A stretch of 55,115 bases of DNA from Candidatus Aminicenantota bacterium (lineage in GTDB: Bacteria > Acidobacteriota > Aminicenantia > Aminicenantales > Aminicenantaceae). The notes under the pieces are model-generated. The model was not told where the DNA came from and made no database searches. It worked only from the letters and a program-made list of their open reading frames with translations. Within the stretch, counting starts at the first letter, position 1; each line of letters begins with the position of its first letter. This document shows positions 17,203 to 31,457 of this stretch, piece by piece. Location of the stretch: NCBI GenBank assembly GCA_030669305.1, contig DAOVDU010000004.1:1-55115 (forward strand), in the 5' to 3' direction. Position numbers and translations under genes: made by a program.

Positions 17203-17673
17203 ATGGAAATCAAATTTAAACCCATCGGCGTTGTCCACTCCCCGTTGAAAAAAAAGGAGGATATCCAATCATCAAGATCCACTGATCCCCAAGGGTTTGA
17301 TTCTGTCCAGGGAGAATTAGAAATATTTAAAGAATTCGAAGAAGGCTTAAAAGACATCGATGGATTCTCCCATCTTATTCTCCTCTTTGCATTTCATAAA
17401 TCTGAAGAATGCAGACTCTTCGCCCATCCTCCATATGATAACAAGCGGAGAGGAGTTTTTGCTACAAGAAGTCCTAATCGTCCTAATCCTATCGGGATGA
17501 CTGTTTTAAAGCTCATCCAGATAGAGCGAAATATTCTGCGAGTCTCAGGAATCGATATGTTCGAAGGCACTCCGGTTCTCGATATCAAGCCCTACACCCC
17601 AAGAGATCAAAAATCCCCTATCAAACTTGGATGGCTGGAAGATAAAATAAAGCAAGCACCAAAATCCCAATGA
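17203..17673 (+). CDS. trmO: TrmO/TsaA-like tRNA N6-methyltransferase
   Basis: This is a 156-aa protein from the ATG at 17203, with AGAAGGA 6 nt upstream; a TTG at 17185 would extend it through that site. It has the start pattern FKPIGVVHSP, then DGFSHLILLFAFH, the signature SPNRPNPIGMTVLKL and DIKPYTPR. TrmO methylates t6A37 of tRNA using SAM. The last codons (APKSQ and the TGA stop) lie inside a dispersed repeat that begins at 17653, so the C-terminus was probably set by repeat insertion. The catalytic part is complete. Confidence 0.88.
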   Translation: MEIKFKPIGVVHSPLKKKEDIQSSRSTDPQGFDSVQGELEIFKEFEEGLKDIDGFSHLILLFAFHKSEECRLFAHPPYDNKRRGVFATRSPNRPNPIGMTVLKLIQIERNILRVSGIDMFEGTPVLDIKPYTPRDQKSPIKLGWLEDKIKQAPKSQ

Positions 17674-18090
17674 CCGAAAACTATATAGGTCTAAGGTTGA
17701 ATGTTTAATGTTTAAGGATTTATAATAAATTAAAAATATTTATACCTTAAACCTTAAACTTTAAACCTTAAACCCGTTACGGCTTACGATTTACGGCTTA
17801 CGTCCATGGGGAATACTGCAATACTGCTAAACTGCCATACTGCAGAAGAATAAGAAAATGGTAAATGGTTAATGGTAAATAGTTAATAGCTTTCTTGCCT
17901 TAAACCTTAAACTTTAAACCTTAAACCCGTTACGGCTTACGGCTTACGAATGTTGCCTTAAACCTTAAACTTTAAACCTTAAACTAATTCGTATGGGATT
18001 TGGGATTTTAATATTAGCCACGAGCAATAAGCCATAAATGTAATTTTGGAGCAATAGAGCGCTTATCCACATAAAAGGGGGAATAGCCAA
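17653..18090. repeat. Dispersed hairpin repeat copy A, with internal expansion; fills the 17674-18196 spacer
   Basis: From 17653 the sequence matches 31244 onward with one mismatch in about 107 bp. The core is an imperfect palindrome with arms built of TTAAGGTTGAATG / CCTTAAACC-type units around an A+T-rich loop. The tail of the repeat (from CTAATTCGTATGG at about 17985) matches the tail of the 31244 copy. Between core and tail sits about 210 bp of extra material: CTTACGG arrays, 8-nt ATACTGCA-like units (about 17810-17850), and two more copies of the CCTTAAAC block (about 17898-17928 and 17956-17985). No gene is seen in this 523-bp spacer. Confidence 0.85.
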
Positions 18091-24021: not shown

Positions 24022-24954
24022 ATGTTAGAAGATTTTCTTTCCATCCATGATTTAAGCCCTTATCAATTTAGCAAAATCTTAGACTTCATTCAGCAAATTA
24101 AAGATAAACCTTGGCGTTTTCGAAATAAACTCAAAAATAAAATCCTGGCCATGATATTCCAAAAGTCATCTTTACGAACCAGGGTAACTTTTGAAGTCGG
24201 CATGCTTCAACTCGGAGGAGAAGCCATTTATTTAAGCCCATCAGATATTCAACTGGGTACCCGTGAGACCCCGTATGATGTTGGCAAAAACCTGGAACGT
24301 TGGGTAGATGGAATTATAATAAGAACCTTTTCCCATCAAATTGCCGTTGATTTAGCTCAGGTCTGCCACATCCCAGTCATCAATGGCCTAACAGATCTTC
24401 TTCATCCCTGCCAGGCCATGGCTGATTTTTTCACTCTAAAGGAAAAGCTGAGAGGTCCAGCGAATTTAAAGCTGGCGTATATCGGAGATGGAAACAATGT
24501 CTGTCACAGCCTTATCTTTGCAGCCGCAAAAGCTGGGAGCAAAATGAGGGTGGCAACACCTCCTGGATATGAGCCAAATCCAGAAATTCTCAAACAAGCA
24601 GAACAAGATGGAAGGGAAACAGGATTCAGTTTCTACATTACAAATGACCCATATGAGGCAGTTCAAGAAGCAGACGCTGTCTACACCGATGTGTGGGCCT
24701 CAATGGGACAGGAACAAGAAAAGGAGAAAAGAACCAAAATCTTTGCCCCCTACCAGGTCAATCGTGCACTCATGACAAAAGCCAAGAAGGACGCCCTATT
24801 TATGCACTGCCTCCCTGCCCACAGGGGAGAAGAGGTCACCGACGAAGTTATCGACTCTGCTCAATCTGTAGTCTTTGACCAAGCTGAAAACAGGCTTCCT
24901 TTCCAAAAAGCCATTATGTTATCATTATTAGAAAAAAAAGCAAAAAATGGATAA
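24022..24954 (+). CDS. argF: Ornithine carbamoyltransferase
   Basis: This 310-aa protein carries the carbamoyl-phosphate loop KSSLRTRVTFE (Leu in place of the usual Thr in STRTR), HPCQAMADF, the ornithine-binding DVWASMGQE and HCLPAHRGEEV. AGGAGG precedes the ATG. With arcC upstream it can run catabolically (citrulline to ornithine plus carbamoyl phosphate) or in arginine synthesis; the pairing favours the catabolic direction. Its 3' end overlaps the next gene by 8 nt. Confidence 0.92.
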   Translation: MLEDFLSIHDLSPYQFSKILDFIQQIKDKPWRFRNKLKNKILAMIFQKSSLRTRVTFEVGMLQLGGEAIYLSPSDIQLGTRETPYDVGKNLERWVDGIIIRTFSHQIAVDLAQVCHIPVINGLTDLLHPCQAMADFFTLKEKLRGPANLKLAYIGDGNNVCHSLIFAAAKAGSKMRVATPPGYEPNPEILKQAEQDGRETGFSFYITNDPYEAVQEADAVYTDVWASMGQEQEKEKRTKIFAPYQVNRALMTKAKKDALFMHCLPAHRGEEVTDEVIDSAQSVVFDQAENRLPFQKAIMLSLLEKKAKNG

Positions 24955-27025
24955 GCAAAACGAAAACATAAAAATCATTGATGCAGACCTCTCTTTCATA
25001 GAAAAAGAGCTCTCCCAAACCAACAAAGCTCTTTCTCTGTATGAGCTGACAAAAAAATTAGCCTTCAAAAAAACCGCCAGTCAATTAAGCAAAGAAGTCA
25101 AAAAATATGATCCTTACTGCCAGTATGAAGTCGGAGATCTTATCTATAAAAAATACGACGAACCCTTGATGGTCAGCAGTAAAGGCGTTGAGCCCTTTGA
25201 CGGAGCTGTTGTGCTTGTAGTTATCAAGAAAATTACATATGAAAATTTCAACTGTGAGATGCTGGAAGTCGATTACACTGGAGGAGGAACTTTCAGAAAA
25301 CACATAGATTATATGAAAAAAACAAAGACTCAAGTTCTCCTACCCAGCAACCTCGAAGGAAAAGCATTGGCTCCAGAGATGCTGAAAAAAGAGGAAGACC
25401 CAAGGCTTCATCAACTTCCAATGGCTAATAAAGATTTAAAAACCCTGGAAAAATATTTGGGAACAGCACTCTCCAAGTCAGCAGCTTTTTTCAACTGGAA
25501 TGACCTTTGGCAGCAAAAAGAAAAACAAGTGGAAATCCCGCAAGAAAAAATAAAAGCAATTGAAAATCATTTCTTGAAAACGAATAAATCTGCCACAACA
25601 ACAGAACTGGTTTCTCAATTATTTAACTTTGATCCTTCAAACGATCTGTTTGATATCCACTGTATCAGTTTGAATTACATATTAGAAAAAAAATTCAAGA
25701 AAACTTATACCTTTGTTTCATCCGACAACTGGGGAAAATGGCATTTGAAGAAAATCCTCGACTCCTTACTGGAAAATCTTCCTCTCTCATCACCGAAGGC
25801 TAAACTCCCTCCGTTTGAGGAGGAGAAAAAAACAGAAACAGCTCAAGCCCAGAAGTTCCCGTTTAGAGTCTATCTTACCTGGAGAGAAATTCTATCCGGT
25901 GGATTTAAAATTCCCAGAAGCCTGAACAAGGAGTTATCTCACTCAAGAGAATATGTTTTTACTGATATAGAAAGTGGGAAGGATTATACTGTTTATTACT
26001 TCCCATCTCCTAGCATTTTTCTTGGTTTAAAAGAATTTTTTGAGAGTAATAATGTCCCTCAAGGAGCAAGCTTATCTCTTGAAAAGAAAGGACCTACACA
26101 TATCAGTTTCTGGCTTAAGACATCAAAGAAGAAGCTTTCTGTATCAAAGGTCGCCTATGATCCAAAAGAGGATATATTTTCTGAGACAGGCGAAGAAGTT
26201 TTCACTTTCTCTTTGCCCAACAAAATCATTCACTTAAAAATAGAAACCTTAAACAAACTTTTTTCCCTTTACGGCCAAAGAGATGACATGGATCTTCGGG
26301 AACTTCTGATCCTAATCTTCAAGAATTTTGGCCTGGAGGGAGAGGCTCTATTCCTACATTTTCTGAGAGCTTTTCATCTTGTCGACATGCTAAAGCAAAC
26401 TAACCAGGAAGATGTCGAAAAAACACTGCTTTTTTCTCCTGAATTTTCCAGATCAGAAAAAAATAAAGGGGTCTTTTTCTATCATGAAAAGATAAAAACT
26501 GAAGGAGAATTAAAGCCTGAAGAGCCTGTCGAAATTCCTTTAGAAATGCTGCCCGAGGAAAAGCTTGAAGAATATCCTGATGAAGTTCTCCCTGAACTGG
26601 GAACGATTGAAGAAATTCCTTTACCTGAACCCCCAAAAGAAAGGGAAGAAATAATAGAAGAGGTGAAAGTTCAAGTTCCCTCTGAACTTCAAAAAGAAGA
26701 AATTCAAAAAAGGCCAAAAAAAGAGAAACCCCCAAAAAAGAAAAAACGGAAGGCAAAAATAGACAAAGAAAGTACTCTTCGCATGAGAAAAGGGGAGAAA
26801 AAAATTATAGAAGAACGAATTGAGTTTGAAGAATCAGAACAGGAAGCTTTAATCGCTGTTAAAGCAAAAGAAAAAAAGGAAGACGTTGGAGAAGAAATAG
26901 CAGCCTATAAAGCAAAAGAAAAAAAGGAAGAGTATGAACCTATTGTTACTCAGAAGCCTGAATTTGGTATATTTGCTGAAAAGCTAAAATCAGCTTTAGA
27001 TAAAAAAAAGAAAAAGAAAAAATAA
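24947..27025 (+). CDS. Large protein of unknown function with Lys/Glu-rich tail
   Basis: This 692-aa protein was not recognised. Residues 14-75 and about 205-270 look like two related helical modules (IEKELSQTNKALSLYELTKK and IENHFLKTNKSATTTELVSQ), suggestive of winged-helix repeats. Each is followed by a beta-rich stretch (GDLIYKKYDEPLMV in the first). A beta-rich domain at about 310-420 (IPRSLNKELSHSREYVFTD...) follows, then a helical part. The final 180 residues are low complexity, Pro/Glu-rich, then strongly basic, ending in a run of lysines, so nucleic-acid binding is plausible. There is no signal peptide. The gene overlaps argF by 8 nt and shares its operon. Confidence 0.8.
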   Translation: MDKQNENIKIIDADLSFIEKELSQTNKALSLYELTKKLAFKKTASQLSKEVKKYDPYCQYEVGDLIYKKYDEPLMVSSKGVEPFDGAVVLVVIKKITYENFNCEMLEVDYTGGGTFRKHIDYMKKTKTQVLLPSNLEGKALAPEMLKKEEDPRLHQLPMANKDLKTLEKYLGTALSKSAAFFNWNDLWQQKEKQVEIPQEKIKAIENHFLKTNKSATTTELVSQLFNFDPSNDLFDIHCISLNYILEKKFKKTYTFVSSDNWGKWHLKKILDSLLENLPLSSPKAKLPPFEEEKKTETAQAQKFPFRVYLTWREILSGGFKIPRSLNKELSHSREYVFTDIESGKDYTVYYFPSPSIFLGLKEFFESNNVPQGASLSLEKKGPTHISFWLKTSKKKLSVSKVAYDPKEDIFSETGEEVFTFSLPNKIIHLKIETLNKLFSLYGQRDDMDLRELLILIFKNFGLEGEALFLHFLRAFHLVDMLKQTNQEDVEKTLLFSPEFSRSEKNKGVFFYHEKIKTEGELKPEEPVEIPLEMLPEEKLEEYPDEVLPELGTIEEIPLPEPPKEREEIIEEVKVQVPSELQKEEIQKRPKKEKPPKKKKRKAKIDKESTLRMRKGEKKIIEERIEFEESEQEALIAVKAKEKKEDVGEEIAAYKAKEKKEEYEPIVTQKPEFGIFAEKLKSALDKKKKKKK

Positions 27026-27026
27026 A

Positions 27027-27105
27027 ATTCTTAAGCATTTTACTTGAACCCCTGACCCCTTGACCCCTTGAATCCTTATGATCCTACCAACTCTTTTGGA
27101 GATGA
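27027..27105 (-). repeat. 79-bp dispersed repeat, copy 1
   Basis: It is identical at 76 of 79 positions to the reverse complement of 54979-55057. It contains CCCCTTGACCCCTTGAATCC and lies directly after the stop of the 692-aa ORF. On the minus strand it reads towards an ATGCTTAAGAAT, which at the second copy opens a short protein-like frame. The rest of the spacer to 27185 has a 7-nt periodic CTTACTC array (about 27122-27157). Confidence 0.85.
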
Positions 27106-27185
27106 GCCATAATTATTTAAACTCCTCACTTCTTACTCCTTACTCCTAACTCCTTACTTTTTAATTAGTTTTGAATTTTGAGTTT

Positions 27186-28271
27186 TTAGAGGATTTCCCG
27201 AATAGCACCCCTCCTGCGTGTTATTCCCATCTGATCAAGAAGCTCTAAAAGAGGAATAACATACTTCCGAGTGAGCCCGGTCATCTTTTTAAAGTCGGAT
27301 ACAGTTAGTTCTTTCTTACCGGAATTGCGAACCTTCGAGATAATCTCCTCCAGCCATCGAGAATGAAGGAAAAATCCGTCCTTTCCCTGGACTATCTTTT
27401 TTCTCTCGATGAGGAGAGAGAGCATTACATTAAGCTTCTTTGTAGAAAGGTTAAAATACTCCTTTAAATATTTTAAAGAAACAGCCTGAAACTCTCCTTT
27501 AAGGCACATCTCTTCCATCTGGTTTAAAATCTCCTTTTCCTCAGGAAGAAGGGATATTTCAAAATCAAAAAGAGCCACTCTATTTTCAATCTCTTTTATC
27601 TTAGCCTCTCGAGAAAGATATCTAAGGGCCAAAGACAGAATTCTGGGATTCAGGTCAAATCTTTTCTGAATCCTGGCAAACGATGCTCCAAGCTCATCAG
27701 GATGTTTCTTATGGAATCTCGATAGAAAGGCAATAATTTGTTCACAGAGAAACTCAAAACTCGCCTGAGAGAGAAGAAAAAGCGGAGAAAAAGCAAGGAT
27801 TCTTATCTTCCCTTCTGCCTCTAAGCCCTGGCTAAAGCGAAGAATAGACTCTCTGGACAGAGGGGAATAACTGATGATTTCCCTCTCGGTCACACCATGT
27901 ATCCCCCGATAATGAACAACCGCGAAAATCATCTGTTTTTCATCCCCAAGAAGTTGCCGAAGAAAATTTTCTCTTTTCTTTATCTTTTTTGGGGGAATCT
28001 TTTCAGAAAGCGGATTAAGAACTTTCCCCTTACCCAATATTCCCAGTTTTCCTTTCTCTTCAATCTCAAACCTATCCATCCATCTCAAAAGGAGAGGTTG
28101 AGAAGACTGTACCATAACAAAAAAATGACCCTTCCCTTCTTCTTTTGCCTGGCCATAAAAAAAGAAAGAAGCAGGAATCTTTGTTCCCCGGATACAGAGC
28201 AGCGCATTCAAAGTCTGCTTTTCAGCAGATGGAGGAACATCAATAACAGCATCAAAACAAGAATTTTCCAA
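27186..28271 (-). CDS. SelB-like protein lacking the GTPase domain
   Basis: This 361-aa protein starts at a TTG with AAGGAG 8 nt upstream. Residues about 1-95 resemble SelB domain III (IRGTKIPASFFFYGQ, then WMDRFEIEEKGKLG and GKGKVLNP). The remainder matches the winged-helix array that binds the SECIS element, with FHKKHPDEL in the middle and the diagnostic end TGLTRKYVIPLLELLDQMG. The EF-Tu-like domains I and II are absent (usual length is about 630 aa), and no GTPase coding sequence lies upstream, where a stop occurs in frame. It cannot deliver Sec-tRNA alone. It is either a decayed selB or an RNA-binding protein derived from it. Confidence 0.8.
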   Translation of the reverse strand: MENSCFDAVIDVPPSAEKQTLNALLCIRGTKIPASFFFYGQAKEEGKGHFFVMVQSSQPLLLRWMDRFEIEEKGKLGILGKGKVLNPLSEKIPPKKIKKRENFLRQLLGDEKQMIFAVVHYRGIHGVTEREIISYSPLSRESILRFSQGLEAEGKIRILAFSPLFLLSQASFEFLCEQIIAFLSRFHKKHPDELGASFARIQKRFDLNPRILSLALRYLSREAKIKEIENRVALFDFEISLLPEEKEILNQMEEMCLKGEFQAVSLKYLKEYFNLSTKKLNVMLSLLIERKKIVQGKDGFFLHSRWLEEIISKVRNSGKKELTVSDFKKMTGLTRKYVIPLLELLDQMGITRRRGAIREIL

Positions 28272-28387
28272 TGGGCCACTCCTTTTTTGGCTTATATCTA
28301 AATTGAATATTTAATCATAGCTTTAAATTTTCAAATGTTCAAAGCAATATTTTCAAAATTCCAAAGCCCAAATCACAAATTCCAAAT

Positions 28388-28506
28388 AAGCACCAAAATT
28401 CCAATGACAGAAACCTATATTGGTTTAAGGTTGAATGTTTAATGTTTAAAGATTAATAAAAAATGAAAAATATAAATACCTTAAACCTTAAACTTTAAAC
28501 CTTAAA
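28388..28506. repeat. Dispersed hairpin repeat, copy B
   Basis: It matches the 17653 and 31244 copies (AAGCACCAAAATTCCAATGA, then TTAAGGTTGAATG and CCTTAAACC arms) with more mismatches. It lies between rnr and the selB-like gene, with its right arm 5 nt from the rnr stop, and could act as the rnr transcript end. Between 28272 and 28388 only A+T-rich sequence is seen. Confidence 0.8.
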
Positions 28507-28511
28507 CTAAT

Positions 28512-30578
28512 CTATTTGGATTTTCCTGAAGAGAGTGTCAAAGTCATCCTCCTCAAGATAGGATCAACGGAAGCAAGGATGACTTTCAGCCTGTCTCCTA
28601 GCTCATATATCCTGCCTGTTCTCCTTCCGATAAGAGTTCTTTCTGATTTCCTAAAATAATAATCTCTGCCTAAATCACTAAAAGGAATTATTCCATCAAC
28701 AAAATAATCATTAAGTTCTACCACCAACCCCGCCCTCGAAACATCAACAATCACTCCTTCAAATTCATCCCCGAGTTTCCCCTTCAGGAATCGAAAAATC
28801 CTCCACTCTATAATATCTCGCTCAGCTTCACCTGCTTTTCTTTCCTGTTCGGAACAGTAAAGAGAAATCGCTGAGAGTGAGGAGGCTTTCGCTTTTTCTT
28901 GCCTGAGGGCACTTTTTAAGATCCGATGAACAGCCAAATCTGGATAACGCCGAATAGGAGAAGTGAAGTGAGTATACTCTCTTTTTGCAAGCCCATAATG
29001 CCCCTCATTCTCATCAGAATAAACAGCAAGTCTAAGGCTTTTGAGCACTTGTAAAGTAATAAATTTTTCTTCAGATTTTCCTTCTGCTTGTTTTAAAGCA
29101 CTCTGCAAATTTATTGACTTAATTTTCTTTGGAAGTGGGAGATAAATGTGAAAATGACTCAACATTTCCCGAAGCCTTTCCAGGTCTTCCAAAGCAGGAG
29201 GAGGATGAACCCTGAATATCAAGGGAATATCCTTCCCAAAAAGAAAAACAGCTACTGCTTCGTTAGCAGCGACCATGAATTCTTCTATAATCTGATGTGC
29301 TTCGTTTGTCTCGAACAGCACTACTGAATGGAGGGTTCCCTCTTTATACACAAGCTCCGGCTCCGCAAGGTCAAAATCAAGGCTCCCTTTCCCTAACCTT
29401 TCCTTACGCAGTAGGCGTGCCAAGTCCCGCATCCGAAATAAATCAGGAACTATATAGGAATATCTGTTCCGCTCTCGCTCATCCTCTTCAAGTATCTTGT
29501 AGACAGAATCATAGGTCATTCTCTCTCTAGTGCGGATCAAAGAAGGATGAAATTCAGTCTTTAAAACTTTCCCTTCTGCACTAATTTCAAGCAAAACAGA
29601 TAAAGTCAATCTTTCCTCTCTTGGCCTCAGGCTGCAAACATTGTTGGAAAGCTTCTCAGGAAGCATAGGAAGAGTCAAATCCGGGAAGTAGATGCTTGTT
29701 CCTCTCAAATAGGCTTCCTTATCCACGCATGATCCGGGTCTGACATAATGAGAAACATCAGCAATATGGACACCGAGAAGAAAATGCCCGTTTTTCAACT
29801 TCTTGATACTTACTGCATCATCAAAGTCCTGGGCGTTTTCGCCATCAATTGTTACTGTCAGCCAGCTTCTGTAATCTACTCTATCATTTCTTTCCTTCAA
29901 AGCAACTTCAGCAGAAACTTCCTCTGCCTCTTTCAGGGCCTCTTTTGAGAATGAGGAAGCCAGGTTATATCTCTTAAATACAACCTTTGTATCCACACCT
30001 TGATCATCAGGCAGTCCAAGGATCTGTTTCAAACTCAAGTTGTCTCTTTCAACCTCAACAATCATCCCGGGCTGAGGAGAAAGAGATGGGCTTTGTGTTA
30101 TCGGAATCTCCACTGAGAAAGGAGAGTCTAAAGGAAGAAAAAATGCTTGTCCCCCTTTTTCTCTGTAAAGACCTATCAAGCTCTTCTTTTCTTTTTTTAA
30201 TATCCTGACAACCTTTCCCTCAGGTTTCCCCTTTTTCCCCTTTTCCCTGTAAAATACTTCAACAACATCCCCACGTTGTGCTCCGCCTGAATATCGTGCT
30301 GGAATGAAGATATCTTCCAGTGAATCCTCATCTGGGCTGACAAATCCATAGCCTCTCAAAGAAGCGATAAATCTTCCCCTAGTAATATTCGATCTTGGAG
30401 CAATGAAATACTTGCTTTTTAACCTGAGAATAGCCCCCTGGCTTTCCATCTTTTTTAACTTTTTCTTTAACAATACTTTTTCTTTAGGTGAAAGGCCCAG
30501 TTCTCTGGCAATTCTTGCAAAATTCAAGCCTTCCCTGCGTTTTCTTAGGAGGAAAAAAATCTGTCTGACCATAACCAT
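28512..30578 (-). CDS. rnr: Ribonuclease R
   Basis: This 688-aa 3'-5' exoribonuclease has an N-terminal helix-turn-helix (about 1-60), a cold-shock domain (RGRFIASLRGYGFVSPDE), the RNB catalytic motif DGENAQDFDDAV with its metal-binding aspartates, the later THFTSPIRRYPDL and a C-terminal S1 domain (GDEFEGVIVDVSRAGLVVEL). It degrades structured RNA in the cytoplasm. The start is 2 nt after the stop of the 223-residue-frame gene upstream and lacks a clear Shine-Dalgarno, so it is probably translationally coupled. Confidence 0.94.
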   Translation of the reverse strand: MVMVRQIFFLLRKRREGLNFARIARELGLSPKEKVLLKKKLKKMESQGAILRLKSKYFIAPRSNITRGRFIASLRGYGFVSPDEDSLEDIFIPARYSGGAQRGDVVEVFYREKGKKGKPEGKVVRILKKEKKSLIGLYREKGGQAFFLPLDSPFSVEIPITQSPSLSPQPGMIVEVERDNLSLKQILGLPDDQGVDTKVVFKRYNLASSFSKEALKEAEEVSAEVALKERNDRVDYRSWLTVTIDGENAQDFDDAVSIKKLKNGHFLLGVHIADVSHYVRPGSCVDKEAYLRGTSIYFPDLTLPMLPEKLSNNVCSLRPREERLTLSVLLEISAEGKVLKTEFHPSLIRTRERMTYDSVYKILEEDERERNRYSYIVPDLFRMRDLARLLRKERLGKGSLDFDLAEPELVYKEGTLHSVVLFETNEAHQIIEEFMVAANEAVAVFLFGKDIPLIFRVHPPPALEDLERLREMLSHFHIYLPLPKKIKSINLQSALKQAEGKSEEKFITLQVLKSLRLAVYSDENEGHYGLAKREYTHFTSPIRRYPDLAVHRILKSALRQEKAKASSLSAISLYCSEQERKAGEAERDIIEWRIFRFLKGKLGDEFEGVIVDVSRAGLVVELNDYFVDGIIPFSDLGRDYYFRKSERTLIGRRTGRIYELGDRLKVILASVDPILRRMTLTLSSGKSK

Positions 30579-30580
30579 GT

Positions 30581-31210
30581 TTAATAATAATAAAGCGAAA
30601 TATGCGGGATTTTATACTTTTCTCTTACGTATTTTACCAACTTAATCCTGAAAATCCTACTGAATTCTTCATCATCCTTGAATCTATATCTAACTTCTAC
30701 CTCCTTCTTGATCTCTTCTCTTACCTCATTAGAGGCATTCTTCAAGAGAAGCTCTTCTATTTCTCGCTCCAGATGTTCAAGCTCTTCTTCATCAATAATT
30801 CCCTGAGATGCCATTTTCTGGACGCGAGAATATATGCCCCTCAAATATCCGATCTTGTCAGAGCTGAACTCTAAAAATCTTTTAACTGCAAACTCCATTC
30901 TCTCTTTTTTATTATCCATTTTCTCTGGTTTTCTTATGTCTCCAACTTTTCTCTCTCTATAAAGATCATACGCCTTAAAGACATGGGGATTACAGAAAGC
31001 TAGAGAAAGGATTTTACCCTTTCTTCCTGACCGCATCCTATAATTTTCGAAAGAACTTTTTATCCCTTCCAGGACTACACGAAGAGGAATTTCCATTTTT
31101 TCCCACTTTGCAATAAGATCGACTTCTTTTGACGAAAGAAAAAAGGGAGCGCCACGCTGCTCGAAGAAACGGTGTGCAATCGTTTGAAAATATCTGCTTC
31201 TTTTATCCAT
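30581..31210 (-). CDS. Helical protein of unknown function upstream of rnr
   Basis: This is a 209-aa protein from the ATG at 31210 (MDKRSRYFQTIAHRFFEQRG). A frame extending to 31252 would read through a dispersed repeat, so its 14 extra residues are rejected. It is predominantly charged and helical: FFLSSKEVDLIAKWEKM, a basic segment RMRSGRKGKI, and a long Glu/Lys coiled-coil-like stretch (IDEEELEHLEREIEELLL). It ends in YYY. No family was recognised. The 2-nt gap to rnr suggests a related role in RNA metabolism. Confidence 0.7.
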   Translation of the reverse strand: MDKRSRYFQTIAHRFFEQRGAPFFLSSKEVDLIAKWEKMEIPLRVVLEGIKSSFENYRMRSGRKGKILSLAFCNPHVFKAYDLYRERKVGDIRKPEKMDNKKERMEFAVKRFLEFSSDKIGYLRGIYSRVQKMASQGIIDEEELEHLEREIEELLLKNASNEVREEIKKEVEVRYRFKDDEEFSRIFRIKLVKYVREKYKIPHISLYYY

Positions 31211-31243
31211 TAATATCCCATGTAATAAATCCAAATACCAAAC

Positions 31244-31457
31244 AAGCACCAAAACCCCAATGACCGAAAACTATATAGGTCTAAGGTTGAATGTTTAATG
31301 TTTAAGGATTTATAATAAATTAAAAATATTTATACCTTAAACCTTAAACTTTAATCCTTAAACTAATTCGTATGGAATTTGTGATTTGGAATTTTAATAT
31401 TAGCCATAAGCAAACTACCAAATGTAACTTTGGAGCAATAGACGCTTACCCACACAC
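31244..31457. repeat. Dispersed hairpin repeat, copy C (most complete)
   Basis: This is the uninterrupted form of the repeat: AAGCACCAAAACCCC, the TTAAGG/CCTTAAAC palindrome and the tail ending GCTTACCCACACAC, about 214 bp. It is followed to 31506 by a 7-nt periodic ACTCCTT array. Copy A at 17653 differs at one base over the first 107 bp but carries an insertion before the tail. Confidence 0.85.

Follow-up and report, generated by a model that had tools for sequence, protein, structure and literature searches.

We analysed a stretch of 55,115 nucleotides, referred to below as the window, from a bacterial genome assembly of 2.06 Mb in 122 contigs that is ~91% complete. On its minus strand, positions 27186-28271 hold a SelB-like open reading frame of 361 aa that starts with TTG and contains no stop. 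A Shine-Dalgarno motif, AAGGAG, is read from the sequence at 28279-28284 (minus strand), with a 7-nt spacer to the TTG, as an earlier note on this DNA had proposed. The conserved upstream neighbour is rnr (28512-30578, minus strand), encoding RNase R with its OB_RNB/CSD2, RNB and S1 domains. Throughout the order, rnr is immediately followed on the same strand by the SelB-like gene, the pair being preceded in the block by valS, a birA-like gene, coaX and a 213-aa gene. The two last genes overlap in 19 of the 33 cases that were measurable, by 4 nt (ATGA) in 14 of the 19. In the window they are separated by 240 nt, an unusually long gap that is due to a dispersed intergenic repeat (28290-28500) that has 69 matches genome-wide. 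Identity is 70-93% for most of them, and more copies in the window lie at 31227-31354 and 17654-17766. Upstream of rnr, 30581-31252 (minus strand) encodes a protein of ~213-223 aa that is conserved order-wide and for which Pfam gives no family over cut-off. Facing the SelB-like gene in convergent orientation, 24947-27025 (plus strand) encodes a lysine-rich protein of 692 aa, conserved order-wide and also in families f10 and f12, with no Pfam or NCBIfam match over cut-off. Between these convergent genes, 27040-27180 is occupied by low-complexity direct repeats (CCCCTTGACCCCTT, ACTCCTTACTCCTAACTCC).

The SelB-like protein consists of domain III and the four winged helices of domain IV, without domains I and II, a conclusion drawn from profile matches, Foldseek and a collinear profile alignment. 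The earlier description of a SelB cut down to its RNA-binding half is therefore correct. Residues 1-92 (27996-28271) form a six-strand barrel resembling domain III of EF-Tu and SelB, as judged from the AlphaFold strands (residues 2-86), EF-Tu matches and a column comparison; in a relative, PF25461 matches at the position corresponding to this barrel. Next come winged helix 1 (residues ~94-168; 27768-27992), winged helix 2 (PF09106; residues ~169-240; 27552-27767), supported by Pfam and the AlphaFold model, winged helix 3 (residues ~241-303; 27363-27551), delimited with the AlphaFold model, and winged helix 4 (PF09107; residues 304-361; 27189-27362), supported by Pfam, the column comparison and conservation; all of them lie on the minus strand.

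The NCBIfam selB model (TIGR00475) aligns to the protein over model positions 307-575 of 581 only, and the score of 59.3 bits is below the curated cut-off of 242.25 bits. Pfam recognises SelB-wing_3 (57.0 bits) and SelB-wing_2 (29.8 bits), both above gathering threshold, and phmmer aligns residues 119-358 to domain IV of Moorella SelB (1lva; E 5.8e-22). The AlphaFold model (pLDDT 89.5) shows the six-strand barrel followed by winged helices. Searched with this model, Foldseek matched the full-length SelB structures 5lzb and 4zu9 across 365-366 columns, and EF-Tu entries across 91-108 columns only, as expected if the domain III-like barrel alone matches. Profile-profile alignment shows the protein to be collinear with residues 262-611 of E. 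coli SelB (probability 100, E 2.3e-51). By profile search and alignment, the N-terminal EF-Tu-like GTPase domain is absent from the protein and from its relatives. The protein thus descends from SelB yet fails its defining features: it has the domain III fold and a domain IV with the winged-helix-4 residues, but neither the GTPase nor a score reaching the TIGR00475 cut-off.

Domain III had also been described as kept. This is true of its fold and collinearity, but not of its residues, since a column comparison with true SelBs shows SelB-invariant residues replaced at positions 26, 71, 74, 75, 78 and 81. By contrast, winged helix 4, with which SelB binds the SECIS, retains R335, K336, L342, E343, D346, T351 and R353 as in the E. 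coli and Moorella proteins. It is also the most conserved part of the molecule, with a mean top-residue fraction of 0.75 compared with 0.41-0.59 in the other parts. The wings of two other winged helices carry conserved residues specific to this clade, namely the motif E151..G154..RILxFSPLF in winged helix 1 and K292 and G299 in winged helix 3. The predicted pI of the standalone proteins is mostly 8-10, so that they are basic.

Standalone proteins fall into three length classes. The commonest, of ~360 aa, corresponds to domains III and IV, and members of ~255-260 aa are restricted to domain IV, domain III being missing. The third class, of ~470 aa, is found in family f8; its proteins align by profile to residues 163-612 of E. 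coli SelB (probability 99.8) and, on this alignment, likely comprise domains II, III and IV, the AlphaFold model of the domain II-like part being poor (pLDDT mostly <50). Across standalone members the length of domain IV is steady at ~240 residues.

The relatives matched by sequence are Candidatus Aminicenantes, mostly metagenome assemblies, some of which are labelled Acidobacteriota. An ortholog with an open, stop-free frame is present in 56 of 60 genomes of the same order; among the other four, the matches of G035 and G037 are their SelBs, and G031 and G032 have no match. At the level of the class, the standalone protein is found in 69 of 71 Aminicenantia genomes that are ≥90% complete, in all families seen, a count that leaves out G037 (whose sole match is its SelB) and G358. 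The dN/dS values fall in the range 0.10-0.38 in every close pair examined, indicating purifying selection. Together with the class-wide presence and the stop-free frames, these values bear out the earlier view of a frame that is maintained and not decaying. In a tree of domain IV (midpoint root; some rows with long branches or biased composition), the 42 standalone proteins cluster on a single branch (support 97/90), and the 18 full-length SelBs from these bacteria on a separate one (support 93/96). From this topology, the truncation looks like a single old event followed by vertical descent. We propose the name "standalone SelB III-IV" for this family of SelB homologues without GTPase, which forms one clade, is class-wide in Aminicenantia and is mostly linked to rnr. 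In the other Acidobacteriota that were sampled, we recognised no standalone member, and nearly all matches there lie in frames of ~580 aa or longer; the exceptions are one fragment at a contig edge and one match within a 289-aa frame.

The standalone protein is independent of the selenocysteine machinery. Among its 56 carriers in the order, 17 also encode a separate full-length SelB and 39, including near-complete genomes, have none. When the order is restricted to 29 genomes with ≥90% completeness and ≤5% contamination, SelB is found in 11 and in none of the rest, and the standalone protein in 28, G037 being left out of the latter count. As for the window's genome, the earlier note had seen no selA, selC or selD in the window, and this can be extended to the whole assembly (~91% complete): selA was not found, the best selD match reaches 75.9 bits (cut-off 125), the best tRNA-Sec match reaches 45.1 bits (cut-off 47; true ones score 63-77), and no SelB GTPase exceeds the cut-off. 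The sel genes are clustered in relatives, for example on contig 391 of G001, so that a single missing contig could account for the absence of all of them from this assembly; the case for independence rests on the many near-complete relatives. Another Aminicenantes genome, G024, encodes two full-length SelBs (contig 1; L160, L177) in addition to the standalone protein.

Since it is conserved even in species showing no selenocysteine machinery, the SECIS-binding half of SelB probably took on a new RNA-binding job. We favour, with reasonable confidence, the view that it is an exapted piece of SelB which, without its GTP and tRNA functions, is reused as a basic binder of hairpin RNA made together with RNase R. 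In an ancestor of the class Aminicenantia, a SelB would have shed the GTPase domain and, in most lineages, domain II too, and with them GTP hydrolysis and the delivery of Sec-tRNA. The remainder would be a basic protein composed of a relaxed domain III scaffold, itself gone in some lineages, and of the four-winged-helix arm. Winged helix 4 most likely binds structured (hairpin) RNA as SelB binds the SECIS, and this binding would be constitutive, without a ribosomal GTPase cycle. We infer RNA binding from the SelB ancestry and the retained residues. Indeed, domain IV is the SECIS-recognising part of SelB (PMC8124441), and winged helices 3 and 4 of E. coli SelB, isolated from the GTPase, bind the SECIS hairpin in vivo (PMC7590224). 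The proposal of a SECIS-like RNA-binding regulator is compatible with these data and has partial support in the unchanged SelB-invariant residues of winged helix 4 and the basic character of the protein.

As the SelB-like gene is the last gene of the rnr operon, its most likely role would be in RNA turnover together with RNase R, as an RNA-binding regulator or adaptor for structured RNAs. A functional partnership with RNase R, for which the evidence is the operon structure, is possible, and we put it forward tentatively. The rnr-(pgi)-SelB-like link persists in f8, where the argF, arcC and ~690-aa flanks are gone. However, the convergent side (the ~690-aa gene, argF, arcC) is as conserved within the order as the rnr side, and the rnr link is lost in f9 members, so that co-transcription need not mean partnership. 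More speculatively, the SECIS arm, once freed from the GTPase, might have become a general hairpin-RNA adaptor that delivers structured RNAs to RNase R or shields them, outside any selenocysteine context; we regard this extension as doubtful. A replacement of SmpB beside rnr was also considered and rejected, an intact smpB being present elsewhere in the window's genome.

Against a hairpin-RNA binder stands the search for an RNA target near the gene. RNAalifold windows placed at the junction with rnr, upstream of that gene and downstream of the SelB-like gene revealed no conserved RNA structure, and Rfam gave no match in the window. Conservation at fourfold sites gave no clear signal in these scans, the best z of 2.8, uncorrected for many windows, lying inside rnr. 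No autoregulatory SECIS-like element was thus found at or near the rnr operon, an absence that is weak evidence at the present divergence.

DNA and proteins are also possible ligands of winged helices, and other activities have to be weighed. SelB acts on the ribosome, and its remnant of domains III and IV could modulate ordinary translation without GTP by docking on mRNA structures or on the small subunit. The ancestry of the protein and the retention of domain III in most members speak for such a ribosome-associated factor. However, this domain has lost most of its SelB-invariant residues and is missing from the 255-260-aa members, and valS is the sole translation gene in the neighbourhood, so we consider this role unlikely. 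It is likewise unlikely that the winged helices are reused in a DNA-binding transcription regulator. Winged helices often bind DNA, a weak MarR-like match was obtained in a relative, and the clade-specific residues in the wings of winged helices 1 and 3 would fit; but conservation is highest in the RNA-binding winged helix 4, whose SelB-invariant residues are unchanged, and the gene ends an operon instead of being divergent from a target.

Two further possibilities would keep the protein within selenocysteine biology. An accessory or regulatory factor of the system, for example a competitor for the SECIS, would bind the same class of RNA, and both proteins do occur together in 17 relatives. 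The 39 of 56 carriers in which no SelB was found, some of them near-complete, make this very improbable. The other possibility, raised in the earlier note, is that of a split SelB whose GTPase half lies elsewhere and which still inserts selenocysteine. Exactly the domains for SECIS recognition are present, but the partner is not: the best GTPase match to SelB in the window's genome is IF2 by sequence, located behind NusA and below the cut-off, and the other matches below the cut-off would be, by length, LepA, EF-G and EF-Tu fragments at contig ends. selA, selD and tRNA-Sec all being without a match over cut-off in this genome also argues against it, as does the finding that selA-positive relatives mostly carry a complete separate SelB. 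In f8, f10, f11 and f12, a gene of ~400-457 aa does precede the SelB-like gene; it encodes phosphoglucose isomerase (PF00342) and not a GTPase, and lies between rnr and the SelB-like gene (L181 4182-5390, L185 6568-7941, L188 4619-5953 in these sister families). We therefore rejected the split SelB as having next to no likelihood. Finally, a decaying remnant or a frameshift or assembly artefact, which two missing domains and an incomplete assembly might suggest, can be dismissed on the identical architecture without internal stops in dozens of independent genomes, the dN/dS values, and the upstream gene being rnr or pgi, so that neither a frameshift joining the frame to a GTPase nor the many stop codons in relatives that the earlier note envisaged is seen.

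Compared with bacterial SelB (TIGR00475; Moorella 1lva/2uwm/2ply, E. coli 5lzb, Aquifex 4zu9), the standalone protein shares the collinear domain III and four winged helices and the invariants of winged helix 4, but differs by the loss of domain III invariants, by having neither GTPase nor domain II nor dependence on selA, selC and selD, and by its place behind rnr. The nearest parallel that we found in the literature is the archaeal aSelBL, a SelB paralogue of unknown function that occurs mostly in organisms not encoding selenocysteine (PMC3037878). What aSelBL has retained is the GTPase part, its G domain being disrupted to a variable extent, and it has no SECIS-binding C-terminal extension (PMC3037878). 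Both are thus SelB homologues that persist largely without the selenocysteine trait, but they are mirror images, the standalone protein having kept the RNA-binding part only; its opposite architecture places it outside the definition of aSelBL. Eukaryotic eEFSec and SBP present, by description, a similar arrangement in which the protein recognising the RNA is distinct from the GTPase; unlike the standalone protein, which persists without the Sec machinery, SBP serves selenocysteine insertion. The isolated winged helices 3 and 4 of E. coli SelB show that a free winged-helix arm works as an RNA hairpin binder in vivo (PMC7590224), although that SECIS-binding tool is an engineered fragment and the standalone protein a natural one. 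A census of translational GTPases (PMC4342817) would not cover the standalone protein, which has no GTPase. No description of the family was found in a literature search that lacked most subscription journals.

SelB is regarded as a factor devoted to selenocysteine, and its homologues would be expected to disappear once the trait is lost. In Aminicenantia the arm that recognises RNA has outlived the trait throughout a class and under purifying selection, and in some of these bacteria it occurs alongside a separate, complete SelB belonging to a clade of its own. This is a natural case of an elongation factor that shed its GTPase and kept RNA recognition only, the reverse of archaeal aSelBL, and, in a phylum of which little is known, the protein is a defined candidate for a novel RNA binder. 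It also has a practical side: standalone proteins may be misannotated as SelB, leading to false calls of selenocysteine use. As a minor observation, the record JARYMI010000020.1 (L155), titled 'Clostridiales bacterium', carries a gene of the Aminicenantia type and appears to be mislabelled.
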